Part shown: positions 12,651 to 42,021 of the stretch, in pieces
How positions within the stretch are numbered: position 1 is the stretch's first letter
Layout of the letters: every line of letters starts with the position of its first letter
Origin: a virus
Direction: 5' to 3' (one strand)
Length of the DNA stretch: 43,799 nt
Virus record (IMG/VR): IMGVR_UViG_3300035698_003583
Span: 1 to 43,799 of that record
Position numbers and translations under genes: made by a program
Notes under the pieces: model-generated
The model's database searches: none
Told to the model about the DNA's origin: nothing
The model's input: the letters and a program-made list of their open reading frames with translations, nothing else

Positions 12651-13508
12651 ATGACAAAGATTAAACAAAGAGTAGGCAGAAAACAATATACGCCCCCGTT
12701 ATCAGAAGATCCGGTATATACGCTGGTGAAAAGACTTACCCGAAAGCAACAGAGATTCGCTGATGAGTATCTATTAGACCTATCTAAACATAATGCTGCG
12801 CAACGTACTGGTTATACTGATAAATCTGCTTGGATAATGGGCCGTGAATTATATGATCTCCCCCAGGTACAGCAGTATATCACCTATATGTTAACCGAGC
12901 GTAGGAATAAAATCTTATCCAGCCAGGAACGTATCATACAGGAGTTAGAGCGTATAGCATTCTTTTCTCCACGATGTATGGTTGATAAAGATGGCATACA
13001 GAAGGGGTTGCTTGAATATAACGACGACGAACTTGCAGCCCTCGCTGATATAGAGTTCACGGGAGTTAAACCAACAGATAAGAGATATAAACGTAATAAG
13101 CCTCAACTGCTGGGCGGCAATGGCAATGGCACATCAGGCCGTACAAGACGAGACGGAAAGCCAAATAATGGTAACGGTGCCACTCCGCCGCCCGTAGCTG
13201 AGGTACATACAGCAGTGATCAAGCGTATAACCCGGTATAACAAGATGGAAGCGTTAAAAGCACTTGGTGCGTATCATGGCATGAGACTAAGTGCGCAGGA
13301 TCAGAATTTCCAAGGTGCATCAACTGGAGCACAGAGCGGTATAATCGAGAGCATTAATTTTGAGACATCGGTGAGAAATCTTGACGCAATTGAACTCGCA
13401 GAACTTAGACGACTACTCGCTAAAGCAACTCACGGCGGTGATGCCACAGACCCCAATGCCAATAGTAGAAAAAGTACTGGCGGAGAAGAGTCTACGAGCA
13501 TTCATTAA
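12651..13508 (+). CDS. terS: Terminase small subunit
   Basis: This 285-residue protein recognises the phage packaging site and hands DNA to the large subunit. Residues 29-84 carry the terminase small subunit helix-turn-helix (LTRKQQRFADEYLLD, AAQRTGYTDKSAW, PQVQQYITYMLTER). The middle has RIIQELERIAFFSP, and a glycine- and asparagine-rich linker (residues 150-180) precedes a helical C-terminal part (NKMEALKALGAYHGM). The ATG has only a weak purine-rich leader (GAAAAGAAAAGAACAG). The C-terminal 22 codons overlap the large-subunit gene in another frame. The order TerS-TerL is standard. Confidence 0.85.
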   Translation: MTKIKQRVGRKQYTPPLSEDPVYTLVKRLTRKQQRFADEYLLDLSKHNAAQRTGYTDKSAWIMGRELYDLPQVQQYITYMLTERRNKILSSQERIIQELERIAFFSPRCMVDKDGIQKGLLEYNDDELAALADIEFTGVKPTDKRYKRNKPQLLGGNGNGTSGRTRRDGKPNNGNGATPPPVAEVHTAVIKRITRYNKMEALKALGAYHGMRLSAQDQNFQGASTGAQSGIIESINFETSVRNLDAIELAELRRLLAKATHGGDATDPNANSRKSTGGEESTSIH

Positions 13509-14991
13509 AGGCGCTTGGTCTATAGTAGAGAATCGTAAGCCTCTTGTCTGGAATTGGCATATGGACGCTATGTGTCAACATCTACAGGCCGTGACCAATA
13601 CGTATATTTTTAAATCAGGCTTGCACGGTCAGGAACGTCATGGGTTTCGTTATGAAGCTGATTTAACCCTCGCGCTTATAAATTACCTTTGGATAAACAT
13701 TCCACCCAGGAGTACAAAATCATTAATCGTAGGTGTGTTCTGGCCCTGTTGGGAATGGGGACCGCAGAACCTACCTGAGTTATCGTACCTTATAACATCA
13801 TATGCACAAGGGTTATCCACCAGGGATAGCATAAAGCGCCGACGTATTATAGAATCACCTTGGTATAAACGAAATTGGGGCGACCGTTTTCGTATATCAT
13901 CTGATCAGAACCAAAAGATGAGATATGAAAATGACCACACAGGGTATATGATTGCGACGAGTATTCGCGGCCTTGGTACCGGCGAAGGTGGAGATAGAAT
14001 AATCGGAGATGATCTTCATAACGTCACTGAGGTAGAGTCGGATGTAAAACGGGAGCAAGTGATTGACACCTGGGATGATTCCATGTCTACTCGTCTAAAT
14101 GATGAGGAGTCGGGAGCATTCATCGGCGTTATGCAGCGGACGGGCAAACGTGATATCACCGGCCATCTACTCGAGAAGGTAAAACTCAAACAGATAAAAC
14201 ATTTCGTTCATTTGTGTCTACCCGCACGATATGAGAAAGATCATCCAAACCCGACTCAAACTCCTCTTAAATTTAAAGACCCTCGTACAAGAGAAGGCGA
14301 AGCCCTCGATCAGCATCGTTGGCCGGTCTCGAAGCTAAATACTCGTGAAGGCCGGATGACCAAATGGGCAATCTCCGGTCAACATCAGCAACGACCGAAC
14401 GTACGTGGCGGTGAGCTTATTCCCGTCGGGATGATTAAAGTCGTAGACGGTTATAACGACCGGCATATAACTAAGTTAGTGCGCTACTGGGATAAGGCTA
14501 TATCGTTAGATAAGTCTGCAAGTAGCACCGCAGGGGTGCTAATGGCATTCATGTCAGACGAATGCGAATACGGAGTGATCGTACTCGACTGTATCGTTGG
14601 TAAGTGGGGCAGTGGTAAACGTGAGCAAAAGATTAGACAGACGGCAATACTCGACGGCGTTGAAGTCGAGGTCGGTGTTGAGCAGGAGCCGGGTTCGGGC
14701 GGAAAAGAATCCGCAGAGAATACGCTACGTAAGACGCTACTTGGTTTCGTTTCCTTCGCAGATCGTCCCACGGGGGCAAAAGAGGTACGACTTGAGCCAT
14801 TTATAGCCCAGTGTGAGCATAATAATGTTGCGGTACTTAATAGGCCATGGACTAAGGATTATCTCGACTCGTTGGAAGATTGTAAGATTGGGTCAGTAAC
14901 GGATGAGGCGGATAGTACGTCCGGCGGGTTTAATAAATTGTCGGGGCTGTCGGTTAAGAAGCAAGCAAGGGTCAGGGTGCATGTGCAATGA
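13441..14991 (+). CDS. terL: Terminase large subunit (ATPase and nuclease)
   Basis: This 516-residue motor packages DNA into the prohead and cuts it. The ATPase domain has a Walker A-like PPRSTKS (residues 88-94) and Walker B RIIGDD (186-191), followed by the TRLNDEESGAFI coupling region. The nuclease domain has the RNase H-like aspartate in RYWDKAIS (D351), EQEPGSGGKES and the closing DEADSTSGGFNKLS (D488, D491). The ATG at 13441 is chosen; a longer frame starts at TTG at 13381 without a ribosome site. The gene overlaps the small-subunit end and shares ATGA with the next gene. About 20 kb separates it from the portal, which is unusual. Confidence 0.93.
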   Translation: MPQTPMPIVEKVLAEKSLRAFIKGAWSIVENRKPLVWNWHMDAMCQHLQAVTNTYIFKSGLHGQERHGFRYEADLTLALINYLWINIPPRSTKSLIVGVFWPCWEWGPQNLPELSYLITSYAQGLSTRDSIKRRRIIESPWYKRNWGDRFRISSDQNQKMRYENDHTGYMIATSIRGLGTGEGGDRIIGDDLHNVTEVESDVKREQVIDTWDDSMSTRLNDEESGAFIGVMQRTGKRDITGHLLEKVKLKQIKHFVHLCLPARYEKDHPNPTQTPLKFKDPRTREGEALDQHRWPVSKLNTREGRMTKWAISGQHQQRPNVRGGELIPVGMIKVVDGYNDRHITKLVRYWDKAISLDKSASSTAGVLMAFMSDECEYGVIVLDCIVGKWGSGKREQKIRQTAILDGVEVEVGVEQEPGSGGKESAENTLRKTLLGFVSFADRPTGAKEVRLEPFIAQCEHNNVAVLNRPWTKDYLDSLEDCKIGSVTDEADSTSGGFNKLSGLSVKKQARVRVHVQ

Positions 14992-15513: not shown

Positions 15514-15891
15514 ATGGCATTTACAAATAAGGAATTACCGAATGCGCGAGATAAGTTTTATCAATTCTTTGCCACCGGCGCTACGATCATGGATGAGTCG
15601 TTTGCTCCTGAGTTTGATTTTATGCTCGCGGATATACGATTGACACTATCGGTTACACACCCAAGCGTTGAGTATTTTACTGGCAATATGAGTATGGTCG
15701 CTGGTAGCGCATATGATATACTTCTGCTTTCTGTCGTAGCGTCTGCATTAACGAATGTGCAGAATCAGATATGGACGATGAACTCAGAGTTACTTACGTT
15801 TTTTCGTGGTGATACTATTGAGTTCTCGATGCCGAACGTTACTGGTATTTATTGGGGATTAGTTGTATCTTGTTGGTCCGTCGTTGAATAA
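15514..15891 (+). CDS. Hypothetical virion-associated protein
   Basis: This 125-residue protein follows a strong GAGGAGATC site. It is beta-rich (DIRLTLSVTHPSVEYFTGNMS; DTIEFSMPNVTGIYWGLVVS), with aromatic and asparagine residues typical of virion proteins, and no enzyme motif. Its place at the start of the tail-type gene run suggests a structural or adaptor role. No family recognised. Confidence 0.5.
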   Translation: MAFTNKELPNARDKFYQFFATGATIMDESFAPEFDFMLADIRLTLSVTHPSVEYFTGNMSMVAGSAYDILLLSVVASALTNVQNQIWTMNSELLTFFRGDTIEFSMPNVTGIYWGLVVSCWSVVE

Positions 15892-15899
15892 AGGACTGT

Positions 15900-16223
15900 A
15901 TGTTTTTAATATATAGTACTCAGGATGTTTATATTGTAAATACTTATTGGTCTATTCTCACGACTGCCCATATTTTAGCTATTACCGGGCCTACTGCGAA
16001 GCATTCTATTTTTGTCAAGTCCGTGGACGAAGATATAGAAGATATACTCGTGACCAATGTTAAAGCTGGCTCCGGTTACGCGCAGGCAACAGAGTTAAGG
16101 CCTATGTTTATGATCGACGGTGGTAAGTACGAGATGTATTACTCTGATGATTATACGGATGATGCCTATAGTATACAGTTTGCTTTTGGATATTTATATA
16201 TACCAGTGATACCGAATGGATAG
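15900..16223 (+). CDS. Hypothetical virion-associated protein
   Basis: This 107-residue beta-rich protein (MFLIYSTQDVYIVNTYW; ELRPMFMIDGGKYEMYYSDDYTDD; SIQFAFGYLYIPV) is preceded by AAAGGACTGT. It has many aromatic and aspartate residues and may be a small tail or fibre-attachment component. No family recognised. Confidence 0.5.
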   Translation: MFLIYSTQDVYIVNTYWSILTTAHILAITGPTAKHSIFVKSVDEDIEDILVTNVKAGSGYAQATELRPMFMIDGGKYEMYYSDDYTDDAYSIQFAFGYLYIPVIPNG

Positions 16224-16232: not shown

Positions 16233-19200
16233 ATGGCACTACACGACATGAGTATTACAATACCCAACGGGAATGATTACTGGGAAATATCTTGCGATGG
16301 GTATAAGGTAAGAATATATGAAAACTCTGAACATACAGATGATTATTTAGGTTCGGTTTGTGATCCCAATACCCCTTATGCTATATGGTACACTTTTGGA
16401 TCTAAAATTGTAACTGCCGCTGGAACATATGCATTAGCTTACGACGCTGGAAGAACGATTACAATAATAGAAAATAGCATAGCAAGAATAATAATCTCAA
16501 TATCTGGTGCTTATGAAACGTCAGCGCAAGGGGCACTTACAAATGGAGCCCCCTCAACAGTAATATTCACATTTGAATCAGACAAGATAACGCAATATGT
16601 TGATTTTAATACATCTGCCGCTATAACACTCTCAACTTCTGCAAGCAATGGCTTGTGTTTCATGAAAGTAAGCACAGCAGTGGTTGAGCGCACACTTAGA
16701 GAAAGGAATAATTCTGAGTGTTCTATTGATGGTACTACATTTATTAGTGGAGAATATAACGATGCTGATTATATAGGTATTCTTTCTACGGAGTGTGACG
16801 TAATTGGCGTTAATCGCTATGACCACAATAAAGGAACAGTTGATCTTTCTCAATATGTTGTATTTGAAGATTCATTAAGCTTTCGTTGGAATAATGGTAC
16901 AACTTATGGTGGCGAAATGGTCTGCACATGGGTGTTTGACTCAGCGGATCGCACAGGGGGTAAACAATATCCAGGTACTATGGTCGTAGACAGCGTTGAT
17001 TATTCAGATCCTACCGAGGATACTGATTTATCGTTTTATTGGGATTGTGATTATTCAGGCTCAGGCGACCAAACAGCAAACGAATCAGACGGGACAGCGA
17101 CAATAACGATTACAGATGTGGGGCTAAATCGTTATGATGGATATGATGGTGGGGCCTATGGCGCAATTGAATCAACTTCAAACTCAGATGTTATCAAGTT
17201 CCTAACAGCCAGTAATATAGTAATTAGCAATTTTCATATTGGTTTTTTTTATATGGCGACGGGGTTTAATCCTCAAAGTAACGCCATAGGTTTTTTCCGT
17301 CATATCGTATCTACTAACGTGTCTAGCTATGGAACAGGTGAAATCGCATTCTGGTTTGGCAGACCCGCAAAAGGCAGTTGTGAGTTTATGATATCAGACA
17401 ACACAGGGCATGTGTCTGGTTCTGGAGAACACTCAGTACGGATGCCACCAGCAAATCACAATATGATTGAAGATGAATGGGACTATATTGAGTTGGTTTG
17501 TTATAACGATGCCACTCCAGAGGGTTGTATGCACAATATGGGCGTGATACGGAATGGTGTTTTAATAGCACAAACATCTCGATTATATGATATTGGATCT
17601 TGGACATCAGGAGCGATTCAAACTTATATGGAGCTTTTAGGCTGGGAGGGTGATTCAACCTTTGGTGGTATGGGAGCCATTGATGAATTTACAATATCAA
17701 GCAACCCTGATATTAGATATTATACTCCAACAAAACGCTTGGCCATCGGTAAACAATTAAAAGATCATTATATTAAAGAGCGTAAGTATATCGATGTCAG
17801 TTCAGTGTTTCCGCTTATAGATGCTTCAATAACATACACTGTGCTTGAATTAACGAATGGTAGTGATACAGCTACAGTAAAATATAGGAACGCGGATTCA
17901 GAAAGCTGGCTTACCCCACTTGAAACAACAATACATTTAGCTTATTCCTATTCAGGATCAAGCATTAAAATAGCTATTCTGTCTGACTTACATATTGAAA
18001 CGGCTACAAGTGCTAATGCATTTACAGCCGCCATAAACGACATGGACGATTCCACTGACATGGGGGATATCGATTATGTGTTTGTGCTTGGTGATGTTAT
18101 AGACGATACGGCTGCTGACTATGGTGTTGGTGCTTCTGATTATAGAGGGATTAGGGGTACTTCTGATATTGCTGCTGCAAATTGGTATGAACTTGCAGGC
18201 AATCATGATGTGCTTGATGCTGAGGCTGGTGGTAGTGGCTTTGAAGATCAACTTGGGTATGACGGCACTAAAAAAGCTAATGTCTATTATTCCGTAGAGC
18301 TTGGTAATTGTAGATTTATTTTTATATCAAGCGATGTCGATAGTGCTGGATATGGAGCCAGTTCTACTGCTGCTGATTTTTTACTTTCCGAATTGGATGA
18401 TGCTGCAACGGATTCACAAACAGCATTTGTTCTCACACATCAATGTAGAGCGAACACAACTCGTGAAACTGATGAAAGTATAACTTCAGAAACATATCCA
18501 CGTTATATAAGTGGCATTGATCTATATACAGTAGATACAGAAGAATGGGCTGCTTGGTTCTGTGGTCATTCGCACGGATACCCGGCAGTTGGGTTCCCTG
18601 ATGAAACAGTCGTTGTTGCTCAGGAAAGCTCTCCAATGTATGAGGATAATCTTTTTGCATGGTGGGCAATGGATGAAGGTAGCGGGGGGCCGGTTGAAAA
18701 GATATCCGGTATAAAGAGTACGTTGGGAGCTGGTGCATCGTGGAATGGCACTACAGGGTTGACATTCTCTGGGGCTACGACAAAACCATGTGATACTAAC
18801 TTTAAAGACTTGCCACTACAAGACGAACTGACCATTATGGTACAATTCAGGCCTGATAGTGAGGCCACAGACATGATAGTAAGCCAATGGCTTAATTCTC
18901 CTGCTGGGTCTTTTTTTATTGGTATCCCTACTGCGAACCAGGTGCAGATGTCTGTTCAAAATGGACTTACAATGGTAGATGATAGAACTGATAAAACAGA
19001 AACTCTTGCAATGACTTCTGCAACAACTATTGATTTAGCTTGTGTGTGTACTGGAACATCTTTAAGGATGTTTGCACGGACAAATAGCGGGACTACATAT
19101 GAGCTAGGGTCTGCAACCGCGCTATCAACAGCAGCAAACTTCAGAGCGGTGGTCTACAGTATTATTTTTGGGAACTTTGAAGGGGGGTCTTGGGATTTCT

Positions 19201-19412
19201 CAGGCGACATTAACTGGTGCATGATGTTTGCAAAATCGTTTATAGCCGGTTCTGACGCACAGACCATAATAGATATAGATGCTTATTTTGATGATCCGGG
19301 AGGTGTAGAGATTGACACATCAAATGGACAGTGGAAACTTGACTTAACTGATACTATAAATATTAGCAATGGCGGCTTAGATTCTTCTGGCGCATGGAAC
19401 ACTGAGGGATAG
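16233..19412 (+). CDS. Tail protein with calcineurin-like phosphoesterase and LamG-like domains
   Basis: This 1059-residue multidomain protein has a beta-rich N-terminal part (1-250), a LamG/concanavalin-like region (about 265-490), a linker, and a metallophosphoesterase domain (about 578-800). The phosphoesterase motifs are complete and ordered: SDLH (D585, H587), LGDVID (D621), AGNHD (N657, H658), THQC (H736) and CGHSHG (H779, H781). A second LamG-like region (about 805-1010) follows. A metal-dependent enzyme placed between sugar-binding folds in a tail-gene run suggests a host-surface depolymerase or a phosphoryl remover acting on lipopolysaccharide or capsule. The next gene follows directly (TAGATG). 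Confidence 0.7.
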   Translation: MALHDMSITIPNGNDYWEISCDGYKVRIYENSEHTDDYLGSVCDPNTPYAIWYTFGSKIVTAAGTYALAYDAGRTITIIENSIARIIISISGAYETSAQGALTNGAPSTVIFTFESDKITQYVDFNTSAAITLSTSASNGLCFMKVSTAVVERTLRERNNSECSIDGTTFISGEYNDADYIGILSTECDVIGVNRYDHNKGTVDLSQYVVFEDSLSFRWNNGTTYGGEMVCTWVFDSADRTGGKQYPGTMVVDSVDYSDPTEDTDLSFYWDCDYSGSGDQTANESDGTATITITDVGLNRYDGYDGGAYGAIESTSNSDVIKFLTASNIVISNFHIGFFYMATGFNPQSNAIGFFRHIVSTNVSSYGTGEIAFWFGRPAKGSCEFMISDNTGHVSGSGEHSVRMPPANHNMIEDEWDYIELVCYNDATPEGCMHNMGVIRNGVLIAQTSRLYDIGSWTSGAIQTYMELLGWEGDSTFGGMGAIDEFTISSNPDIRYYTPTKRLAIGKQLKDHYIKERKYIDVSSVFPLIDASITYTVLELTNGSDTATVKYRNADSESWLTPLETTIHLAYSYSGSSIKIAILSDLHIETATSANAFTAAINDMDDSTDMGDIDYVFVLGDVIDDTAADYGVGASDYRGIRGTSDIAAANWYELAGNHDVLDAEAGGSGFEDQLGYDGTKKANVYYSVELGNCRFIFISSDVDSAGYGASSTAADFLLSELDDAATDSQTAFVLTHQCRANTTRETDESITSETYPRYISGIDLYTVDTEEWAAWFCGHSHGYPAVGFPDETVVVAQESSPMYEDNLFAWWAMDEGSGGPVEKISGIKSTLGAGASWNGTTGLTFSGATTKPCDTNFKDLPLQDELTIMVQFRPDSEATDMIVSQWLNSPAGSFFIGIPTANQVQMSVQNGLTMVDDRTDKTETLAMTSATTIDLACVCTGTSLRMFARTNSGTTYELGSATALSTAANFRAVVYSIIFGNFEGGSWDFSGDINWCMMFAKSFIAGSDAQTIIDIDAYFDDPGGVEIDTSNGQWKLDLTDTINISNGGLDSSGAWNTEG

Positions 19413-22400
19413 ATGGCTTACGATCAAACCATATATTGGGACAGTATAAGGGTTTCGCCTACTGTCGTCTTTTGGGATTGGACAGATATGGAGGAGCCCA
19501 TTCTCTATATCAACACTGTCGAGAAAACACCAGGAACAGATTACCAGTTTTCGAGGTTGATGGATTATGATGCTGGGTCTGTTGATTTTACTGACACTGA
19601 AACTTTAACCGGGGGTAGCAGCGGTGCGACAGCTACAATAATTTCACACACACTTACATCTGGCACATGGGGAGGTAATGATGCGGCTGGTGTTTTATAT
19701 CTTACGGAGCAAATCGGCGAGTTTGTTGATGGAGAAGCTGTAACGGGTAGTTCGACAGGGGTTGCAGTCGTAGACGGCACTCAAAGAATAGTGATATCAC
19801 AGGCGGGGGATGTTACGAGTTCTACTGTGTGGCAGCTTGTAAATAGTGGCGCAAGCATTAGTCCAAGTATATCGTCGTCTATATCAGCAAGTATTAGTTT
19901 AAGTCCATCAGCAAGTCAGTCACCTTCATCATCGATCTCAGCAAGTATATCCAGCTCAATTAGCTCAAGTATTTCGTCAAGCCAATCTCCAAGTAGTTCT
20001 ATATCTGCTTCTATTAGTGCAAGTATATCCGGTTCGGCTTCACCTTCACAATCGCCCAGCGCATCTATTTCAGCAAGTATATCCGGTTCGATTAGCGCAA
20101 GCGTTTCACCCTCGTCATCTATTAGTGCAAGTATATCCGGTTCGGCTTCACCTTCAATATCTCCGAGTAGTTCTGAAAGTCCGAGTATATCTGCATCTAT
20201 TTCATCAAGTATATCAAGTTCTATATCCTCAAGTCAGAGTCCAAGTAGTTCTATCTCAGCGAGTTCATCGTCGAGTATAAGTTTAAGCCCGAGTAGTTCA
20301 ATAAGCTCAAGTCAATCGCCGAGTAGTTCAGAATCAAGTAGTATATCACTAAGCCCTTCATCTTCACCAAGTAGCTCTATATCATTGAGTGGGTCATCAA
20401 GTATATCACTAAGCCCATCAAGTTCTATCAGCGCGAGTCTTAGTAGTTCAATAAGCTCAAGTCAATCGCCGAGTAGTTCAGAATCAGCATCAATTAGTAG
20501 TTCTATATCACTAAGTCCAAGCGCGAGCCAATCTCCATCGTCAAGTATATCCAGTTCTATATCGTCAAGTACAAGCGAGAGCGGTTCACCAAGTATATCT
20601 GCATCTATATCAGCAAGTCAATCTCCGAGTAGTTCTATATCGGCGAGTATATCCGCTTCAATTAGTTTAAGTATATCAAGTTCTATATCAGCCAGTCAAA
20701 GTCCATCAAGTTCAATTAGCGCAAGTGTTTCTCCCAGTAGTTCAATATCACTGAGTGAAAGCCTGAGTATATCGCCTTCATTGTCTCCAAGCGTAAGTCC
20801 TTCAAGTTCAATATCGGCATCTATTAGCTCAAGTGTATCTCCAAGCCAATCGCCCAGTAGTTCTATTAGTGCGAGTATATCTGTTTCTATAAGCTCAAGT
20901 GTATCGTCCTCAATCAGTGCAAGTATTTCAAGTTCTATTTCAACATCTATATCTGCAAGTATATCTTCTTCAATAAGCGCAAGTGAGTCACCATCAAGTT
21001 CTATATCAGCAAGTATATCAAGTTCTATATCAGCAAGTGAGTCGCCTTCAAGTTCTATAAGTGCAAGTATATCATTGAGCGTTTCAGCTTCTATATCTGC
21101 ATCTGAATCTCCCAGTAGTTCTATAAGTTTAAGCCCATCGGCTTCTATATCTGCAAGTCAATCGCCATCATCGTCGTTAAGCGCATCTATCTCATCAAGT
21201 GTATCTGAAAGCGTATCGCCCAGTAGTTCAATATCATCAAGTATATCAAGTTCAATTTCAAGTTCAATATCGACAAGCATTAGTTCAAGTCAATCACCAA
21301 GTAGTTCAATATCTGCAAGCGTGTCAAGTTCAATAAGTGCAAGTGTTTCGCCAAGTAGTTCTATTAGTGCAAGTATATCAGGGTCTATCAGTGCGTCACA
21401 GAGTCCTTCAAGTTCGGTTTCATCGTCAATTAGCTCGAGTATATCTGCATCGCAGTCGCCTTCAAGTTCTATAAGTGCATCTATTTCATCAAGTATATCA
21501 AGTTCTATATCCTCAAGTCAGAGTCCAAGTAGTTCTATCTCAGCGAGTTCATCGTCGAGTGTGTCCGAGAGTGGTTCACCCAGCGCAAGCATCTCAGCAA
21601 GTCAATCGCAAACACCAAGCGCAAGTGTATCGCCAAGCGTTTCATCAAGTCAGTCACCTTCAGCGTCTGTCAGTTCAAGCCAATCAGCAACGGTATCTGC
21701 ATCTGTTTCGCCAAGTATATCACCCAGTATATCTGGTTCTGTATCCGCATCTATAAGTGCCAGTATATCCGGTTCTGTATCGAGTTCTATATCGCCAAGT
21801 GTTTCGTCAAGTATATCGGCATCAATTAGTGCCAGTATATCAAGTTCTATAAGTGCAAGTGTTTCACCGAGCGAGTCACCTTCAAGTTCAATAAGCGCAA
21901 GCCAATCACAGACACCATCGTCAAGTATATCACTAAGCTCATCGGCATCACAGTCGCCAAGTAGTTCTATATCGAGTAGTCCAAGCCCTGAAACAGCCGA
22001 GGGATTAAAGGGTGAACGTGGGGAGAACCTGCTGGACAGCCTTGACGAAATACTTCTTGATGAGTTCGGGTCATCTACTCCAAGCCCATCGTCTTCAATA
22101 TCAGCAAGTATATCAGCAAGTATATCAGCAAGTATATCAGCAAGTATATCAGCAAGTATATCAGCAAGTATATCAGCAAGTATATCATCGAGTATATCAT
22201 TATCTGTTTCGCCAAGTATATCAGCCAGTATATCATCTTCTGTATCGGCGAGTGAATCTCCTTCAAGTTCTATATCAGCAAGTATAAGCGCGAGTATATC
22301 GCCAAGCGTTTCGCTTAGTCCATCAGCAAGTATATCAAGTTCTATATCAGCAAGCGAGTCACCTTCAAGTTCTATATCATCATCTATATCACCGAGTATA

Positions 22401-24437
22401 TCGGCTTCTATATCATCAAGTCAATCTCCATCTGCGTCTATATCAGCGAGTATAAGTTCTTCTGTATCGGGTTCGTTGTCGGCAAGTGTATCTCCGAGTA
22501 GCTCTATATCAGCATCTATCAGTTCAAGTATATCCAGTTCATTATCAGCATCTGTTTCACCAAGTATTTCATTAAGCCCATCATCTTCTATTTCAGCAAG
22601 TGTATCGGCTTCTATTTCAGCAAGTATATCTGCAAGTCAAAGTCCTTCGGCTTCTATATCACCAAGTGTATCGGCAAGTGTATCGGCTTCTATTTCAAGT
22701 TCGATATCATCAAGCGTATCCCCGAGTAGTTCGATATCAGCAAGTATAAGCGCAAGCGAGTCACCTTCAAGTTCTATATCGGCGAGTATTTCATCAAGCA
22801 TATCTGAGTCTGGCTCGCCATCGGCATCTATCAGTGCAAGTCAATCACAAACACCGAGTAGTTCTATATCATCTTCGATATCAGCGAGTGAATCTCCTTC
22901 ATCTTCTGTAAGTCCAAGTATATCGCCGAGTATATCACCCAGTATATCAAGTTCTATATCATCCAGTATATCAAGTTCTATATCATCCAGTATATCATCT
23001 TCGTTATCATCTTCAATCAGCTCAAGCGTATCACCCAGTGCTTCTATTTCATCGTCTATATCTGCAAGTATTTCTGCAAGTATTTCTGCTTCTATCAGTG
23101 CAAGTATATCATTAAGTCAATCACCCAGTGCAAGTATATCATCGAGTATTAGTGCAAGTATTTCATCTTCGGTATCGTCTTCGGTTTCACCCAGTGCATC
23201 TATATCGCCTTCGTTATCGGCAAGTGTATCATTAAGCCCATCATCTTCTATAAGCGCAAGCATTTCATCAAGTGCTTCACCTTCGTCTTCTGTCAGTTCA
23301 AGTATCAGCTCAAGTATATCGGAGAGTGTTTCACCTTCAGCGAGCATAAGTCTAAGTATATCAGCTTCGATATCGTCAAGCGTTAGTCCAAGCGCATCTA
23401 TATCAAGTTCTATATCGGCGAGTTTGTCTGCAAGTATTTCAGCAAGTGAATCGGCAAGTATATCAAGTTCTATCAGCTCGAGTATATCGGCTTCTATATC
23501 AGCAAGTGAATCTCCAAGTAGTTCAATCAGTGCATCTATTTCATCGAGTATATCTGAGTCTGGTTCACCGTCAAGTTCTATATCTTTAAGCCAATCACAA
23601 ACACCATCTGCAAGTATATCCAGTTCAGTTAGCTCGAGTATATCTGCAAGTGTATCGAGTTCAATATCAGCAAGTGTTTCACCCAGTAGTTCTATATCAG
23701 CATCTATTTCATCTTCAATCTCGGCAAGCATAAGCGCATCTGTATCGTCGAGTATTTCAAGTTCAGTATCTCCATCGGCTTCGATTTCGCCTTCAATTAG
23801 TCTTTCACCAAGTGCATCTGTATCAGCATCTATCAGCTCAAGTATATCTGCAAGCGTATCATCAAGTATATCATCCTCGCAGAGTCCAAGTGCATCTATA
23901 TCTGCAAGTGCGTCAGGTTCTATATCGTCAAGTATATCGTCAAGTATATCGGCTTCTATTTCATTGAGCGAATCTGCATCTATCAGCGCAAGTATATCAC
24001 CAAGTAGTTCTATATCGTCTTCGATATCAGCGAGTATAAGTGCAAGTATTTCAGCATCTATTTCATCGAGTGTTTCAGCATCAATATCTCCAAGTATATC
24101 GGCTTCTATCAGTGCAAGTATATCAGCATCTATATCAGCAAGTCAATCTCCGAGTAGTTCTATATCGGCGAGTATATCTTCAAGTGTTAGTCCTTCAGGC
24201 TCCATCAGCGCAAGTATATCATCAAGTCAGAGTCCAAGCGCAAGTATATCACCAAGTGTATCGCTTAGTCCATCGGCAAGTGTATCTGCATCTATATCTC
24301 TTTCAATTAGTGCGAGTATATCAAGTTCGATATCGCTAAGTGATAGTCCGAGTTTGGATATAGGTGATTCTCTTATAGGTCGACTAACAGCGGTATCAGC
24401 AACGGTTCAAACAAGTGCAGTATCAGGGAGCAGTTAG
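19413..24437 (+). CDS. Giant serine-repeat protein
   Basis: This 1674-residue protein has a 147-residue N-terminal head ([10 protein letters not shown] ... QLVNSGA) that is beta-rich and may attach to the tail. Almost 1500 residues of repeat follow, in which serine fills every other position and the rest are mostly I, A, P, V, L and [22 protein letters not shown] and similar. A non-serine island of 27 residues (21990-22070) interrupts it, and a unique C-terminal end closes it. Such a two-residue period forms an extended or beta-stacked rod and offers hundreds of O-glycosylation sites. It starts directly after the phosphoesterase protein (TAGATG). Confidence 0.75.
21990..22070 (+). other. Non-serine island inside the repeat protein
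   Basis: Twenty-seven residues ([13 protein letters not shown], then [14 protein letters not shown]) interrupt the serine repeat. They include a short collagen-like GLKGERG and an acidic amphipathic helix. It may be a hinge, a trimerisation helix or a protease site. Confidence 0.6.
22098..22181 (+). repeat. Seven perfect 12-bp tandem repeats
   Basis: ATATCAGCAAGT repeats seven times in succession and encodes seven ISAS units. It is the only perfect DNA repeat block of this length in the gene, lies just after the non-serine island and looks recently expanded. Confidence 0.85.
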
Positions 24438-24875
24438 ATGATAGTTACAACAAAAGAAATTAAGAAGAAATTAAGAGCTGAGGTTCCGGGCTTGGCTGAT
24501 ACTAAGCTGGATATGGATATTTTACTGCGTGATCCGGCTTATAAGCTGCTTTCGCTACTTACGTTTGAAAAGATTAAAGCAATGTGCAGTATGCAGGGTA
24601 TGAAATTCATACCCGATGTATTTGATTGCGATGACTATGCTCTTGTATTACGGGCGCGTTTTCGTCAACTTCAATACGATTTGATTCAGGCATATCCCCC
24701 GATGGATAAACAATACGCCTGGTTTTTTCCTGAGTGTTTAAGTGTACATGCCATACATGGTCCGCACAATACAAATATAACAATTACGGATGACTGGGTT
24801 ATCAGATATACCGAACCGCAGACAAACGAGATGACGACGAAGTTTAACGGAAAGATATATTTTATAGATGGATGA
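24438..24875 (+). CDS. Agglutinin-C/papain-like cysteine-motif protein
   Basis: This 145-residue protein has FDCDDYALVLRARF (C64), then a HAIHGPHNTN segment (H110) and ITDDWVIRYTEPQTNEM (E126). The 'CDD-[FY]-A ... H-x-x-N ... EPQ' pattern resembles the papain-like domain of fungal agglutinin C-terminal domains and phage relatives. It would be a cysteine peptidase or transferase. The gene begins two bases after the serine-repeat stop, so it is coexpressed with it. Fold inferred from motif order only. Confidence 0.45.
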   Translation: MIVTTKEIKKKLRAEVPGLADTKLDMDILLRDPAYKLLSLLTFEKIKAMCSMQGMKFIPDVFDCDDYALVLRARFRQLQYDLIQAYPPMDKQYAWFFPECLSVHAIHGPHNTNITITDDWVIRYTEPQTNEMTTKFNGKIYFIDG

Positions 24876-24886
24876 GGGAGTGTATA

Positions 24887-26008
24887 ATGAAAAGATTGAC
24901 AACAGTATTAATTATATTTGCTTTATTGTTTTTTCCGCTGGGGTGTAAAACAGAAAAGGATAAAGATGTTCGACCTATTGTTAAGATGACTGAGGAGGTT
25001 GCGTCCAATGCGCTTCAGCATGAGCTTGATCAGCTGCTCTTTCCGGACAGGGCAGTAACGCCGCTGGCTAATCTTACTCCCGAAGAACTAATGACTTTGG
25101 CAGAGCAGACACAGGCACAGATTATTACCTATACAAAAAATACAACGCCAGTAGTAACTGATCAATTGCTTGGCATGGATATTATTGTTGATCCTACTAA
25201 TTGGTCAGTAAATAGGTTTGAAATTTCTGATTTGATAACACTTATACTCGCAGATTATGGACCGGGAACAACCGCTACTCCAAGTCTTACTTTTTATAGT
25301 TCTGCCGCCATCGGGGCAGACGATGCAGATGAAGAATCTGCAAAGATTGATGTTAGGATGCCGACTACGACTGAAGACCACGAATATGGAACTATGGATC
25401 TTCAGGTGATGGAAGATGGCACGGAAGTTACTCATATTCAACTCGATGGCGTTAATGGTCGCACTGAGTTTAAAAAACCAATACTTTTCGAGGCAACATC
25501 ATCCGTTGATAAAGGGGATGCTATTAGCGACGAAATACCAAATGGAACTGATCCTGATGTTGATGCTGCTGGGGAGCAAAGCTGGGATTCAGATGATTTC
25601 TGGCTAAGACATTACGATGGATCAAATCAAAGGGCGATCGTAACAGAATATAATATTCCATTTTCGGCGGCTGAACCAGATACAATGGACGCCCGTGATT
25701 ATATGCCTTTCTTTACGAATAATACCGGCGCAGATATTGTTATACTTTCTATATATGCTATATCGGATGATGATGATGTTGATTTTAGAATTGAAGAGTA
25801 TGATGCTGACGGCTCAAGCAATGAGGTGTTGGTTAAGGCCGAGACGTGTGATACAGGAGCGGGACCGTATACGAATGATGCACAGTCTACAATTACAAAC
25901 GCAACTATAGAAGATGGCCATATACTTGTTTTTGATTTCGACGATAGTGATACTCCAGATTATTTACATTTTACAATCTGGTATAGAGTAAACGGAGATG
26001 TAGACTAA
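24887..26008 (+). CDS. Tail-fibre-like lipoprotein
   Basis: The start is the ATG at 24887 (after GAGGGAG); a longer frame adds five residues without a site. The 373-residue product has an N-terminal hydrophobic signal ending in the lipobox PLGC (C20), so it should be lipid-anchored and surface-exposed. The rest is beta-rich and aspartate- and threonine-rich, with segments typical of phage tail fibres (HIQLDGVNGRTEFKKPI; TAETCDTGAG-like loops; YLHFTIWYRVNGDVD at the end). A phage tail-like domain on a bacterial lipoprotein signal is unusual. Confidence 0.6.
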   Translation: MKRLTTVLIIFALLFFPLGCKTEKDKDVRPIVKMTEEVASNALQHELDQLLFPDRAVTPLANLTPEELMTLAEQTQAQIITYTKNTTPVVTDQLLGMDIIVDPTNWSVNRFEISDLITLILADYGPGTTATPSLTFYSSAAIGADDADEESAKIDVRMPTTTEDHEYGTMDLQVMEDGTEVTHIQLDGVNGRTEFKKPILFEATSSVDKGDAISDEIPNGTDPDVDAAGEQSWDSDDFWLRHYDGSNQRAIVTEYNIPFSAAEPDTMDARDYMPFFTNNTGADIVILSIYAISDDDDVDFRIEEYDADGSSNEVLVKAETCDTGAGPYTNDAQSTITNATIEDGHILVFDFDDSDTPDYLHFTIWYRVNGDVD

Positions 26009-26190
26009 TGAAATTATTTATAGCATTAATATTCATGATATGTTTTTGTACACCTACGACTATTCATAGTGGGATGGTAGTTGGTAATTATTATTCAGGT
26101 GGTGGTGCCCCTGCCGCCAACCCAATGACGATAACACTCGGGGCTAATGATATAATAGGGTTAGGCACCAATGATAAAATAGTATTTTAA
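26008..26190 (+). CDS. 60-residue protein with signal peptide
   Basis: A Sec-type signal (MKLFIALIFMICFCTPTTIHSG) is followed by about 38 residues of small and polar residues (GGGAPAANPMTITLGANDIIG). The start overlaps the previous stop (TAATG). No enzyme motif is seen; it may be a small secreted or periplasmic peptide, or a minor fibre tip. Confidence 0.5.
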   Translation: MKLFIALIFMICFCTPTTIHSGMVVGNYYSGGGAPAANPMTITLGANDIIGLGTNDKIVF

Positions 26191-26204
26191 ATGGAGGGGG
26201 AAGA

Positions 26205-26777
26205 ATGAAGATGAAAAGAAAGTTATTTACATTATTAATGGGAAGTTTATTGTTGGTAGGTTTGATCGGCAATGCTTACGCAGGCTCTCTTGAAGCGGGA
26301 GCCGGAACTGACATTGAAATGAAGATGGGCGATGCTGTTGGTGCCAATAAGGTTTCGTTTCTTGATTCGGGTGATAATGAGGTTGCAAGCATCGACAGCG
26401 ATGGAAACTTATTGGCATATTCAGTTAGCGGCCCGGCACTTTTTACAACCGATGCAAGTGGTGTTATAACACTAACTGTAAATGCGGTTAATTACGGCTC
26501 TGATACAGGCAAAGCGAATATCCCAACCGGTTACTGTGACGCTGCCGCTGATGTAGGCAACTGGGTAGCTCTTGTAAGCTCTGCTGCTGATGCATACCAA
26601 ATGACATCAGATGATGAATCGAATCAGTTTATCATTGCTGCTAATGCAGCAGCATTAACCGCAAACGATGAACTTGACGTAGATGGCACGATGGTCTGCG
26701 TGATGTGTATAGCGGCTGAATTATGGAAAGTCACTGGCTACATGGGTGCTATTCCTACAGATGGGGGTGCGCCATGA
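26205..26777 (+). CDS. Secreted tail-fibre-like protein
   Basis: This 190-residue protein has a clear Sec signal (MKMKRKLFTLLMGSLLLVGLIGNAYA, cleavage after AYA). The mature part contains GANKVSFLDSGDNEVASIDSDGNLLA, a pattern common in phage fibres, and an alanine-rich second half with paired cysteines (CVMC). A strong GGAGGGGGAAG site precedes it. The gene overlaps the next by four bases. Confidence 0.55.
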   Translation: MKMKRKLFTLLMGSLLLVGLIGNAYAGSLEAGAGTDIEMKMGDAVGANKVSFLDSGDNEVASIDSDGNLLAYSVSGPALFTTDASGVITLTVNAVNYGSDTGKANIPTGYCDAAADVGNWVALVSSAADAYQMTSDDESNQFIIAANAAALTANDELDVDGTMVCVMCIAAELWKVTGYMGAIPTDGGAP

Positions 26778-27835
26778 TGAAAAAGATATTTCTGATATTA
26801 TTATTTATTGGGTTTTTATTTTCCACTTCTTATGCTTTCAATCCTTTGGTTGTTTGTTCGGGGATGCCAACTGCTGGTGGTGGTGACACAACCAAACCGA
26901 CTTTAGATTCAATATCAGCAGACGGTGATGATTGGACATTCACTTATTCTGAAAATGTAACGGCAACCGATGATGGTGATATGTGCGATACACATACAGC
27001 CACCACATCAACAGCCGGAGCATTAACCTTCACCTATCTGTCCGGGGCAAGAGGATCAGCAAGCGTTTTCCATTGTACCAGTTCTACTGCAATCGTTAAT
27101 GGGGAAACAATATCAGCCGGTGAATATACGGAAGGTACTATTGCTGATACGTCTGCTAATATACTTGACGCTATTGGCGATTGGACTGCTGATTGGACTA
27201 ATGCAACGGCTGGAACGTCTTATCTAATAGACCTTGATTTTGAGTCTGCTGGTATTGATTGGGATGCCACTCAGGGTACAGAACAAACCGCAGGAAACGT
27301 TGACGCAAACGGAGAGTGGTGTGACGCCGATACTACAGCAAACCATTTCAAGAATGGATCTCAGGGGCTTTATGCATATGGTGCCGATACGGATGTGTAT
27401 CTTGAAGAAGGTTTAGGCGGTAGCTATTCGACGTTTATTATTGATTTCTGGCTTAGAGGTTCAGACACATCAACTTCGTCCATGTTTCAATTTCGATATG
27501 CTTCTGATTATACATACTTGATTCAATTCTGGTCTGGCCATGAAATAAGAGTCAACGCTAATGGCGGTGATGCAGTGCTAACTGATCTTGTCGTTTCTAA
27601 TGACACATGGACACATGTTAGGGTTTCCATTGAGGAAGAAACAGCAGATGGGAACGATGATGGGGAAGTAAAAGTTTGGATGTCTACAAGCGACACTGAT
27701 TTCGATGGCGATGCTGCGGATTATACAGATAGTACTGTTGATACCTGTGATTTTGCGACTATAAAATTACGGTTTGTGGGGCCATATACCAGCGACACTA
27801 ATGCTTTTGATGACGTACAAGTTTGGGAGCCGTGA
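26774..27835 (+). CDS. Secreted protein with Ig-like and LamG-like domains
   Basis: The ATG ATG at 26774 overlaps the previous stop and follows GGGGGTGCGCC; a longer frame has no site. The 353-residue product has a Sec signal (MMKKIFLILLFIGF ... SYA), an Ig-like repeat with the 'TKPTLDSISADGDDWTFTYSENV' pattern of SwmB-type domains (about 45-150), and a LamG-like C-terminal domain (LDFESAGIDWDATQG ... WTHVRVSIEEE). LamG domains bind sugars or proteins. It overlaps the next start by one base. Confidence 0.6.
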   Translation: MMKKIFLILLFIGFLFSTSYAFNPLVVCSGMPTAGGGDTTKPTLDSISADGDDWTFTYSENVTATDDGDMCDTHTATTSTAGALTFTYLSGARGSASVFHCTSSTAIVNGETISAGEYTEGTIADTSANILDAIGDWTADWTNATAGTSYLIDLDFESAGIDWDATQGTEQTAGNVDANGEWCDADTTANHFKNGSQGLYAYGADTDVYLEEGLGGSYSTFIIDFWLRGSDTSTSSMFQFRYASDYTYLIQFWSGHEIRVNANGGDAVLTDLVVSNDTWTHVRVSIEEETADGNDDGEVKVWMSTSDTDFDGDAADYTDSTVDTCDFATIKLRFVGPYTSDTNAFDDVQVWEP

Positions 27836-28686
27836 TGAAATTTTTAAAGATACTACTAATATACAGCTTGACTTTATTTTTACCTCTACAAGCATTTAGT
27901 GCTACCAGAATATTCTTTGAAGATTATGAAACAACTGTTTTCTCAGAGCATTTTCTTGAAAATCAATACGGTACAAGTTATCTGGAGTATTGGAATATAT
28001 TTAAAGCTGAAATGTCGCAATCCAATACGTCTTATGCTGGTACATATTCAGCGGTAGTCGATGCCTATTCTGCCAATAATCCTCATGCCGCTATGGGTAA
28101 CGGCGCGAGAGATTACGGCAATCTATCTAATTTTGATTTGGGTGTTTTTGAAAATAGGTATTTCTATATTAGATGGTATCAGCAATGGGAAGATGGAACT
28201 TCGTATAATAGTGATGGTGGCGGAAACAAAATTATCTATATCGGCTGCGGTGGAGATTATTACTATCTCTCAAAAAAATATGACGATAATTTTGTACTCG
28301 TAATCAGGGACGCTTATGGGGGCAACAGTCTGTATGGCGACTGGTATTATGGCGCGATAGACTATGATGATGATGCATGGCACAAGATGGAGATCTACAT
28401 AGATTTTGGTTCATCTAATGAAGCATCTGATGGTTCAACATGGATTGAAATTGATGATCTTCGGGTATTTTCAGTAAGTGATTTGAATTTTAAAACGCTT
28501 CCATCACCAATAGATTGTATCTCTTCCCCCGGAAATTGTACATCTTGCTCCGGTACACAAGATGTTCGTTATGATAATTTAGAAATTTATACACTTACCG
28601 GCCCTGGAGATATTCCAGGTGAAGAAGCAACCCCAACAATCTCAGGCGCAAGCGGTGTAACAATAAGCGGGGGGGTTTTTCAATAA
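27835..28686 (+). CDS. Secreted LamG- or lyase-like beta-jelly-roll protein
   Basis: The ATG at 27835 follows TTGGGAG and overlaps the prior stop. The 283-residue product has a signal (MKFLKILLIYSLTLFLPLQAFSA) and a beta-rich body with YFYIRWYQQWEDG, NKIIYIG and WHKMEIYIDFGS. These resemble the concanavalin-like fold shared by polysaccharide lyases and LamG domains. No catalytic residue set can be assigned, so binding and enzyme activity are both possible. A cysteine pair (NCTSC) lies near the end. Confidence 0.55.
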   Translation: MKFLKILLIYSLTLFLPLQAFSATRIFFEDYETTVFSEHFLENQYGTSYLEYWNIFKAEMSQSNTSYAGTYSAVVDAYSANNPHAAMGNGARDYGNLSNFDLGVFENRYFYIRWYQQWEDGTSYNSDGGGNKIIYIGCGGDYYYLSKKYDDNFVLVIRDAYGGNSLYGDWYYGAIDYDDDAWHKMEIYIDFGSSNEASDGSTWIEIDDLRVFSVSDLNFKTLPSPIDCISSPGNCTSCSGTQDVRYDNLEIYTLTGPGDIPGEEATPTISGASGVTISGGVFQ

Positions 28687-33292: not shown

Positions 33293-34629
33293 CTGATCTA
33301 AGTATAATAATACCTGCGCGGAACGAAGAGTTTCTGCAACGGACTATAGATGGCGTACTGTCTAATATAAAAGGTGATACCGAGATTATTGCCATACTCG
33401 ATGGTTACTGGCCTAATCCCGGCATCGTAGATCACGAAAGGCTTAAACTTATACATAATAGTGATCCGATAGGTCAGCGTGCCGCAACTAATCAAGGCGT
33501 AAGGCTGTCCACCGCTAAGTATATTATGAAGCTCGACGCTCACTGCTCAGTCGATGAAGGATTTGATATTAAGCTCATGGCTGATATGAAATACGACTGG
33601 ACGGTCATACCCCGTATGTATACCCTTCATGCATTTTCTTGGGTATGCCAGAATTGCCTTAAAAGTTATTATCAAGGGCCGGTAAAAAAAGATCCTTGTG
33701 AGAAATGCCAGTGTGTAGAATATACGAGGGAGATAGTCTGGAAGAGAAATAAACGAACCGATTATATGTGGTTTGATCGTGACCTTCGTGTTAAGTACTT
33801 CGACTCCAATGCCTTTAAAGCTTACAGCGATGATAAGTCCGCGATGAAAAAGAAATATAGTCCCCGGCATCGTACGGAGTTTCAAGGCGAGATAACCGAC
33901 GTGCTGAACGGTGTAGGTGCTTGCTGGATGCTCGATCGGGATCGCTATTGGGAACTCGGCGGGCTGGACGAACAGCACGGCTCATGGGGGCAGATGGGAG
34001 TAGAGATTGCAATGAAAGCATGGCTCTCAGGGGGTCGACATGTCGTAAATAAGAAAACTTGGTTTGCGCATCTGTTTCGTACTCAGGGTGGTGACTTTTC
34101 ATTCCCGTATAAGAACCCAGGATCGGCTCAGGAGAAGGCTCGGAAATACTCTAAGGGGTTATGGTTAGGGAATAACTGGCCGCTTCAGAAGAGGCGATTA
34201 GGGTGGCTTATTGACCGATTTGCACCGCTACCGGGATGGGATGGTTATTTCGATGATAAGCATCTGGAAAATCCTTTAGACGAAGGCAAAGAATGTATTT
34301 GCGATGAGAAAGATAAAACCGATTGTAGTAAATGTGGCATCGTAGTGCCTGAACCACTTGCGTCTGAACTTGTTGCAGATGTGAAAGCAGGTATATCCCA
34401 TATAAATGATATAGTTGTTAAATATGATTATGTTGATTTAAAAACTATACGAGAGCCAACAAAAGGCATTGTTTACTATACGAACAACAGATGTGAGGAG
34501 CGAATACTGTCTACGGTACGTCGTCATATAAAAGTTGCTGCTAATGGTCATCAAATCGTATCGGTATCACACTTTCCGATCGACTTCGGTAGAAAATATC
34601 GTAATGAAGCTGGAAAGCAGTGCACTTAG
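33289..34629 (+). CDS. Two-domain glycosyltransferase, broken by frameshift
   Basis: The ATG at 33289 overlaps the previous stop (ATGA). The first domain is GT27-like: LSIIIPARNEE, KLDAHCSVDEGFD (D83-A-H85), ACWMLDRDRYWELGGLDE, GVEIAMKAWLSGGR and KTWFAHLFR, close to the 'VGHVFR' ending of GalNAc-transferases. A CxxC pair (C120, C123; C137, C140) inserts a zinc finger. The second domain begins like the YYT family (KGIVYYTNNRCEE ... SVSHFPIDFG) but the frame is lost after G434 by one extra base near 34591. The protein then ends in an out-of-frame tail. Confidence 0.65.
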   Translation: MTDLSIIIPARNEEFLQRTIDGVLSNIKGDTEIIAILDGYWPNPGIVDHERLKLIHNSDPIGQRAATNQGVRLSTAKYIMKLDAHCSVDEGFDIKLMADMKYDWTVIPRMYTLHAFSWVCQNCLKSYYQGPVKKDPCEKCQCVEYTREIVWKRNKRTDYMWFDRDLRVKYFDSNAFKAYSDDKSAMKKKYSPRHRTEFQGEITDVLNGVGACWMLDRDRYWELGGLDEQHGSWGQMGVEIAMKAWLSGGRHVVNKKTWFAHLFRTQGGDFSFPYKNPGSAQEKARKYSKGLWLGNNWPLQKRRLGWLIDRFAPLPGWDGYFDDKHLENPLDEGKECICDEKDKTDCSKCGIVVPEPLASELVADVKAGISHINDIVVKYDYVDLKTIREPTKGIVYYTNNRCEERILSTVRRHIKVAANGHQIVSVSHFPIDFGRKYRNEAGKQCT

Positions 34630-35158
34630 TATGTTCAAGCAGATACTTATCGGTTTAAAAGCAGTAAAGGCAGATGTAGTATTTCTCGCCGAGCATGATG
34701 TAATATATCATCGTACGCATTTTGATTTCACTCCTGAGAAAGAGGATGTTTATTATTACAATGAGAATGTCTGGAAGCTTTGCGCTAAAACAGGGCAGGC
34801 AGTTTTTTATCGCATTAAACAGACAAGTGGGTTATGTGCATACCGAGAGTTATTGATCGAACATTATTCCAAACGGGTTGAACGGGTGCAACGTGAAGGG
34901 CTTACTCATCGCATGGGGCTTGACCCCGGTACACATAAGACACCACAGGGTATAGACGATTATAAAGCGCTGACATGGATGTCGAAGGGGTCAAATATAG
35001 ATATCCGTCATGGTAATAATCTTACGGCGAATCGGTTTCGTCGTGATCAATTTAGATCAAAGAGGTCAATTAAGGGGTGGACACTCGCGGATAAAATTCC
35101 GGGGTGGGGAAAGACTAAAGATAGATTTGATAATTTTATTTTCGATCTTGGTAGTTAA
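34604..35158 (+). CDS. Second half of the broken YYT-family domain
   Basis: The +1 frame from 34592 reads ENIVMKLESSALSMFKQIL, matching QNIVMSIG ... SIFKQIL of the paralogue, and continues through AEHDVIYHR to a complete C-terminal end (GWTLADKIPGWGKT). Internal ATG 34604 has no clear ribosome site. It may therefore be a mutation, a sequencing error, or a +1 frameshift product joined to 33289-34629. Confidence 0.5.
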   Translation: MKLESSALSMFKQILIGLKAVKADVVFLAEHDVIYHRTHFDFTPEKEDVYYYNENVWKLCAKTGQAVFYRIKQTSGLCAYRELLIEHYSKRVERVQREGLTHRMGLDPGTHKTPQGIDDYKALTWMSKGSNIDIRHGNNLTANRFRRDQFRSKRSIKGWTLADKIPGWGKTKDRFDNFIFDLGS

Positions 35159-35535: not shown

Positions 35536-36870
35536 ATGGCTGGTATGTTAGGAAGATTATTTAATCGATTACGTAGAAAAGAAAGCCGCACTACTCGTTT
35601 ACAGATACAGTCAAGTGGGGGCGGAGTTGTATGCTCGGATAAAGATTACGAGAAGTACAGCAAGGAGACATACCTTAAAAATGTTATATCCTTTCGTTGT
35701 ATACAGGCGATAGCGCAAGATGCCTCCCTTCCGACCTGGCAGCTTAATAAACGGCTTTCAGAAGACAATGTAGAGAAGATCGGTGATCACGAGGGAGTAG
35801 ATTTATTACATAGGCCTAATCCTCGTCAGAGCTGGAACTATTTAACATTCAGGGCCATTGCCTTTTTAATCCTCGCAGGCAATAGTTATCTTGAGAGAGT
35901 AAAACTTGATGGCCGTGAATATCCATCTGAGTTATATTCACTTCGGCCCGATCGCGTAAAGATGAAAATGAACACCAAGACTGGTCAGATTGCAAGCTAT
36001 ACATACAGTATAAGTGATACGAATGGAACAGAATTTGAAGTTGATCCTATTACACAACAAAGTGACCTGCTACATTTGATGTTATTCCATCCGGTAAATG
36101 ATTTCTACGGTGCGAGTCCGATCGAACCCGCATCGCGTAACATAGATAGTAATAATGATGCGATAGACTGGAATCAATCACTACTGCGTAATCAGGGGCG
36201 ACCGGGAATGATCTTCACCCTCGTTGGTGATCTCTCAGACGATGAGTTTGATCGTTTCACTCGTCACCTCGATGAGGATTGGTCCGGCGCTGATAACGTG
36301 GGTAAGAATATGGTACTCACGGGGGAGAAAGGAACAACCGCTGCACCTTATTCGTTAAAGCCGTCTGAGATGGAATTTATCGAAGGCAATCGTGAACTCG
36401 CACGTAGTATAGCACTTGCGTTCGGTGTGCCTCCGATGTTGTTGGGCATCCCCGGAGATAATACGTACTCCAATTATAAAGAAGCACGGATGGCGATGTT
36501 CGAGGATACGACTTCATTCTATCTCAAGTTATATTGTGCTGAATTAAATAACTGGCTGTTCACTAAAGATGATGGATTGTTCTACACCTATAACGAAGAT
36601 GGAATACCTGCGCTGGAACCACGGCAGGAAACGAAGTGGAAACGTGCGAATGAATCTAACTTTTTAACCGTGAATGAAAAACGTGAACTCACTGGTTATG
36701 ATACCGTGGAGGGCGGTGATATAATAATGGTCGATGCGAGCAAGATACCGCTCGGTATGGCAATCACAGGTGAAGGTGACGATGGCGATAGTAAGATGAT
36801 TGCTTTAAATACTGAGGAGCGAAACCTTATCGAAGGAGTAAGAGCGATTGACTGGAAGGATAGTATATAG
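35536..36870 (+). CDS. Portal protein (HK97 family)
   Basis: This 444-residue protein forms the dodecameric ring through which DNA enters and leaves. It has the portal core: FRCIQAIAQDASLPTW, LLHRPNPRQSW, LILAGNSYLERV, the GRPGMIFTL stem region, then EGNRELARSIALAFGVPPMLLG, the usual 'FGVPP-x-LLG' sequence. The ending is acidic. The gene is followed directly by the head morphogenesis gene. Confidence 0.9.
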   Translation: MAGMLGRLFNRLRRKESRTTRLQIQSSGGGVVCSDKDYEKYSKETYLKNVISFRCIQAIAQDASLPTWQLNKRLSEDNVEKIGDHEGVDLLHRPNPRQSWNYLTFRAIAFLILAGNSYLERVKLDGREYPSELYSLRPDRVKMKMNTKTGQIASYTYSISDTNGTEFEVDPITQQSDLLHLMLFHPVNDFYGASPIEPASRNIDSNNDAIDWNQSLLRNQGRPGMIFTLVGDLSDDEFDRFTRHLDEDWSGADNVGKNMVLTGEKGTTAAPYSLKPSEMEFIEGNRELARSIALAFGVPPMLLGIPGDNTYSNYKEARMAMFEDTTSFYLKLYCAELNNWLFTKDDGLFYTYNEDGIPALEPRQETKWKRANESNFLTVNEKRELTGYDTVEGGDIIMVDASKIPLGMAITGEGDDGDSKMIALNTEERNLIEGVRAIDWKDSI

Positions 36871-37670: not shown

Positions 37671-37694
37671 TGAATAAACAACAAGGAGGAAATA

Positions 37695-38465: not shown

Positions 38466-38488
38466 CATTTTATTATAAGGAGTAAAAA

Positions 38489-39976: not shown

Positions 39977-40022
39977 TTGTTTAGGTAGTTTTTTTTAAAC
40001 ATAGTAAATGGAGGAAAAAAAG

Positions 40023-40532: not shown

Positions 40533-40550
40533 CCTTAACGATCTTCTAAG

Positions 40551-40620
40551 CGAGTAGGTTGATGTCTCCTTTCCTGCTCGTTGGAAGCCGGTAAGGGGTA
40601 GTACCAATTTACCCCTTACC
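40551..40620 (+). terminator. Double hairpin after the capsid genes
   Basis: Two stems lie in this gap: 8 bp (CGAGTAGG/CCTGCTCG, 40551-40580, one GU) and 11 perfect bp (GGTAAGGGGTA/TACCCCTTACC, 40590-40620, loop of 9). The second is followed by ATTTCAATCTT, a weak T tract. It may partly stop transcription to favour capsid mRNA, or protect its 3' end. Confidence 0.5.
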
Positions 40621-40651
40621 ATTTCAATCTTAATAACGGAAGAGGTATAAA

Positions 40652-41167: not shown

Positions 41168-41197
41168 TAGACAACAGTTATAGGGAGGAGGTATAAA

Positions 41198-41689: not shown

Positions 41690-41719
41690 TAAAATAGTTA
41701 CAAGGAAGGAGGGTAATAA

Positions 41720-42019: not shown

Positions 42020-42021
42020 TT

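Follow-up and report, generated by a model that had tools for sequence, protein, structure and literature searches.

A putative mobile metallophosphoesterase module in a large phage protein encoded between the terminase and portal genes

The terminase-portal interval

The window analysed here, a 43.8-kb virus contig (43,799 nucleotides) of a tailed phage, encodes on its plus strand a 1059-aa modular protein with a metallophosphoesterase domain, P0001 (16233..19412; a single open frame; PF00149, E 3e-8). The gene lies in an interval bordered on the left by the gene of the terminase large subunit (TerL; 13381..14991, plus strand; phrog_38, E 1.4e-52), which together with TerS occupies 12651-14991, and on the right by the portal gene (35536..36870, plus strand; phrog_12, E 9.7e-68), with which the genes for portal, head morphogenesis, protease, major head protein and head-tail adaptor begin (35536-42624). 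Two small plus-strand genes precede P0001. One encodes 125 aa (15514..15891) and is 53% identical to a gene found at the same place after TerL in the related contig L007; the other, directly upstream of P0001, encodes 107 aa (15900..16223) and has no PHROGs match. The gap between the two is 8 bases, and 9 bases separate the second from P0001. Directly after the P0001 stop codon begins P0003, a 1674-aa serine-rich repeat protein (19413..24437, plus strand), which after residue 150 is 57% serine with a strong two-residue (even-lag) periodicity and whose repeat has a single brief interruption of non-repeat sequence around residues 860-890. Next come a 145-aa gene (24438-24875) and a row of four genes that each encode a Sec-type N-terminal signal, lipoprotein-like in the first (24872..28686, plus strand), and beyond these lie glycosyltransferase and methyltransferase genes. 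All signal peptides in this study were called by a simple hydrophobicity rule rather than a trained predictor.

Several minor features of this stretch were also recorded. The 145-aa protein matches Agglutinin_C at E 5.9e-5, under the cut-off, and resembles by eye a protein of L007 (18091-18540). A glycan-type island near P0003 (28808-35158) comprises two GT2 glycosyltransferase genes (28808 and 33277), three related methyltransferase genes (29750, 30324 and 32319) and three copies of one unnamed family (30959, 31597 and 34535); glycosylation of P0003 or of the virion is a possible function. The end of the GT2 frame at 33277-34629 matches the start of the family that continues in another frame at 34535-35158, so that the gene there appears to be split between frames.

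A TerL search recovered contigs at 58-63% identity. In L007/G005 the homologue of the 15514 gene again follows TerL, a 603-aa repeat protein takes the place of P0001, and signal-peptide proteins follow. In G005, the nearest long relative, the portal and capsid genes come before the sheath, tape measure, baseplate and fibre genes, indicating that the terminase-portal interval is variable and distinct from the tail block. Genes with Sec-type signals also occur in runs near the terminase or portal in L007 (14625-20980), L002 (2666-4157), L005 (16369-21179) and L080 (3-3840); judged by eye, they include LamG-like and beta-helix-like proteins, and some members are lipoprotein-like. Related proteins are found both with a signal (L005, 19734) and without one (L086, 3045).

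P0001 itself can be divided into four parts, all on the plus strand: an N-terminal carrier part that is beta-rich by eye (residues 1-513; 16233..17771), a small sandwich-like part directly before the enzyme, recognised from BLAST, alignment and model (residues 514-577; 17772..17963), a calcineurin-like phosphoesterase domain recognised from PF00149 and the fold search (residues 578-783; 17964..18581), and a C-terminal carrier part that is LamG-like by eye only (residues 797-1059; 18621..19409). An earlier note on this DNA had described the protein as a tail protein with LamG-like flanks, and neither description was upheld. No Pfam match was obtained for residues 257-509 or 807-1059 even at E <= 10, and the flanks, beta-rich by eye as they may be, match no known virion docking or fibre domain in PHROGs or Pfam. 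No tail gene was recognised in the window, P0001 has no PHROGs tail match and its locus lies between TerL and the portal gene; searches of annotated phages gave no relatives. The assignment of P0001 as a tail component is thus unsupported.

The phosphoesterase module and its relatives

The PF00149 match of residues 578-783 scores 34.8 bits against a curated cut-off of 21.5 and spans the whole profile (1-191 of 191). The five metal-site motifs reported in the earlier note were borne out by the motif scan, by shuffling and by PF00149: SDLH (residues 584-587; 17982..17993), GDVID (620-624; 18090..18104), GNHD (656-659; 18198..18209), THQC (735-738; 18435..18446) and GHSH (778-781; 18564..18575), all on the plus strand and in the superfamily order DxH, GD, GNH(D/E), H, GHxH. 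Shuffling the 236-residue core 200,000 times never produced the ordered set, even with spacing limits dropped. From family knowledge, we take D585, H587, D621, N657, H736, H779 and H781 to be the metal ligands. At E <= 1, Pfam gave PF00149 and a weak Metallophos_2 match only, with no GDPD domain among them, and the single PHROGs match was to a weak metallophosphoesterase family (phrog_1649). P0001 is filed as a metallophosphoesterase, neither as a tail fibre nor as GpdQ.

As a full-length protein, P0001 is an orphan, with no relative in the PDB, annotated phages or viral contigs by ordinary searches. Scans for close relatives came back empty whether the query was full P0001, its domain or an alignment to unrelated cellular enzymes, and negatives of the PF00149 genome search mean little because that search missed P0001's own domain. 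Relatives were found by scanning DNA for the motif WYExxGNHD, which occurs in 16 contigs, two of which (L080 and L086) encode true relatives of the module; a profile scan built on all three phage sequences returned the same two contigs. The L080 carrier is an 813-aa protein that is open at the contig edge and has a predicted N-terminal signal anchor; the L086 carrier has 679 aa and no signal, and the N-terminal carrier parts of both read like beta-helix proteins by eye. BLAST aligned P0001 residues 514-796 with L080 residues 383-652 (E 2e-44) and L086 residues 364-629 (E 3e-27), E-values that are valid for the small island set only. The sandwich part is common to all three proteins by BLAST and alignment. 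The N-terminal part of P0001 lies outside the shared region and has no tblastn match among annotated phages, and no relative of the C-terminal part was found among phages. The earlier note had named loss of metal-site residues in relatives as evidence against the site; all ligands are kept in both phage relatives at 33-37% identity, the one departure in these motifs being AHLH in L086 where P0001 has GHSH, with the first glycine of GHxH replaced by alanine. The middle of P0001 is almost certainly a real phosphoesterase module, the sequence comparison supports a complete, conserved phosphodiesterase-type active site, and the module is probably catalytically active.

The TerL proteins of the three phages fall into different families (phrog_38 in the P0001 phage, phrog_2 in L080 and phrog_9 in L086). 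Homology confined to the module, together with such unlike TerL families, shows that the module moves between carriers. As judged from sequence, P0001 residues ~514-796 are a mobile module, sandwich plus putative phosphodiesterase, mounted on different carriers in unrelated phages. In L080 and L086 the module gene also lies on the terminase/portal side, and in the L086 record the tape measure gene lies past the capsid genes, on the far side from the module gene. Two further metallophosphoesterases were rejected as module members, that of G005 as SbcD-like and located beside SbcC, and that of L052 as a stand-alone enzyme. The base of relatives is thin, comprising two phages and one bacterium, and the searches brought up no relative for which virion or activity data exist.

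The bacterial member was detected with a profile of the three phage modules, which gave one strong match (E 3.5e-26) in 380 Patescibacteria genomes. This chromosomal homologue (L120, 9265-10229, minus strand) is split over two frames, either in reality or through a sequencing error. The first part has a predicted signal anchor together with a stretch that matches the sandwich weakly, the second is the enzyme with its metal motifs, and the gene sits among housekeeping-type genes. Samples of three other phyla yielded much weaker matches to parts of the enzyme domain only; the Acidobacteriota and Armatimonadota sample matches (E 1e-5 to 1e-10) cover the enzyme part only. That a bacterium has the same module, there with a signal anchor, gives a hint of the source from which the phages acquired it. 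A separate host link was considered and dropped: L059 (MEWG01000029.1), the same phage contig as L006, is binned with a WWE3 bacterium whose genome falls in one family with the Patescibacteria genome that carries the module homologue. Its composition correlates with the contigs of that bin at r 0.27-0.39 and with L007 at 0.94, and being unlike the other contigs of the WWE3 genome it was likely mis-binned.

Fold model and comparison with known enzymes

Folded from its single sequence, the P0001 domain gave a poor model (pLDDT 38), whose fold search was meaningless. With the three-row alignment, the module model reached pTM 0.66 and a mean pLDDT of 57, rising to 70-91 in much of the core; it is a moderate-confidence model resting on three sequences, in which the sandwich corresponds to strands 34-40, 46-53 and 58-68. 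The structures closest to it are those of Rv0805 (Z 12.1) and GpdQ (Z 11.9), aligned over 177-188 residues, with 20% identity to GpdQ over 177-182 residues, and Foldseek agrees on the neighbours. The structure prediction proposed in the earlier note thus returned a metallophosphoesterase fold with Rv0805 and GpdQ nearest (Z about 12), indicating at moderate confidence the two-metal alpha/beta sandwich fold. Purple acid phosphatases and acid sphingomyelinase-like enzymes follow at Z 8-10, and Mre11 is also among the neighbours. Since this predicted neighbourhood comprises both phosphodiesterases and phosphomonoesterases, it leaves the substrate unfixed. A PDB profile search at E <= 0.1 gave no sequence match to Rv0805, GpdQ or others. 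In a viral structure library the top matches were other metallophosphoesterases, one of them within a 608-residue phage protein, so that the fold probably also occurs in large phage proteins other than the three described here.

GpdQ, the Enterobacter aerogenes glycerophosphodiesterase (PDB 3d03, 2dxl, 2zo9), and Rv0805, a class III phosphodiesterase (PDB 2hyo, 3ib7), share the two-metal fold and the motif order with the P0001 module at about 15-20% identity in structural alignment, but they are stand-alone enzymes, whereas the enzyme of P0001 is a module of a large phage protein. Purple acid phosphatases (PDB 1kbp, 3zk4) resemble P0001 in having an N-terminal sandwich followed by a metallophosphoesterase, yet they have no sequence match to it, and the P0001 sandwich, of only about 60 residues, is at most a possible counterpart of their Fn3-like domain. 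Among phages, GDPD (GlpQ-like) domains occur in enterococcal phage tails (survey PMC10194240), and a GDPD enzyme of Lactobacillus phage Ld17 is cited in that survey; among phages that infect Gram-positive bacteria, tail enzymes that cut phosphodiesters are thus nothing exceptional. Like P0001, these enzymes place a phosphodiester-cutting domain on a phage structural gene product with a surface polymer as the proposed target; they differ in belonging to another fold and family and in being located in tail modules, where P0001 is not visibly located. In Staphylococcus Stab phages, metallophosphoesterases are reported in particles by mass spectrometry, and DNA or phosphate scavenging was proposed by the authors (PMC7077315). 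A narrow, open-access literature search on phage metallophosphoesterases returned stand-alone enzymes or enzymes with no tail link. Phage tail phosphodiesterases of the GDPD type being already known, the present case differs in that the module is a metallophosphoesterase, in the unrelated carriers that share it and in where it is placed.

Proposed role and alternative explanations

We propose, with about even confidence, that P0001 is built from modules, serves the phage as a surface or appendage protein and carries a mobile two-metal phosphodiesterase with a GpdQ/Rv0805-like fold. In the proposed mechanism, the seven side chains would bind two metal ions together with a bridging hydroxide, and the metal-activated water or hydroxide would attack the phosphate, cutting a phosphodiester. 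The flanks would tether the enzyme to the particle or to a glycan, so that, outside the cell, it could trim a polymer that contains phosphate while the phage attaches or is released. The parts of this proposal differ in strength. That the module acts outside the cytoplasm is likely, given the signal anchors of L080 and the Patescibacteria homologue and the carriers, beta-helix-like by eye; whether P0001 belongs to the virion is evenly balanced; and a host surface polymer, such as the lipopolysaccharide, teichoic acid-like polymers or capsule named in the earlier note, is put forward as the substrate only tentatively. The lack of a signal peptide in P0001 counts against this proposal, as does the position of the locus outside the tail block wherever relatives show one (G005 and the L086 record). 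If the module is active and directed to the surface, a phosphodiesterase of the metallophosphoesterase type would join the enzymes that phages graft onto surface proteins, and its boundary at ~514-796 allows direct expression and testing.

A non-virion protein, encoded in an interval of secreted-type genes and working on the envelope or surroundings of the infected or lysing cell, for example by altering surface phosphodiesters, shutting out competing phages or releasing phosphate, would fit the four consecutive signal-peptide genes downstream of P0001 in the same run, the similar gene groups after TerL or the portal in L007, L002, L005 and L080, and the predicted export of the L080 module protein. 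However, P0001, its neighbours at 15514, 15900 and 19413 and the L086 carrier are without signals, and the signal calls come from the hydrophobicity rule, so we consider this reading rather unlikely. A wider form of it, in which the terminase-portal interval holds an interchangeable envelope-directed gene set, some members Sec-exported and others not, that takes up grafted enzymes such as this phosphodiesterase module and acts on the host envelope from within the infected cell, or on what surrounds it, and is not tail machinery, is doubtful. The placement of P0001 among signal-peptide genes between terminase and portal prompts one to ask which proteins tailed phages export while they infect.

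Two accounts of the domain itself are less probable than these. Rv0805 and Mre11 are among its structural neighbours and such enzymes are frequent in phages, the SbcD/SbcC pair of G005 being one example, as would suit a cytoplasmic nuclease or nucleotide phosphodiesterase (SbcD/Mre11 or class III cyclic-nucleotide type) acting in DNA processing or counter-defence; but the module lies inside a 1059-aa protein in a structural gene run, its relatives have signal anchors or beta-helix-like parts and no SbcC partner adjoins P0001, making this account improbable. Inactive metallophosphoesterase folds exist, and the glycine-to-alanine change at the start of GHxH in L086 would agree with a receptor-binding scaffold that only binds phosphate-bearing surface glycans without catalysis. 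Yet despite low identity all seven ligands persist across three phages, as do the motifs in one bacterium, a pattern that would be difficult to account for if metal binding were not under selection, and a non-catalytic scaffold is thus very improbable.

In the related contigs, intein-like ends were also recognised by eye from VHN(C) junctions, in the TerL of L007 (9881-10990) and in the Mu F-like head protein of L005 (14065-16305).
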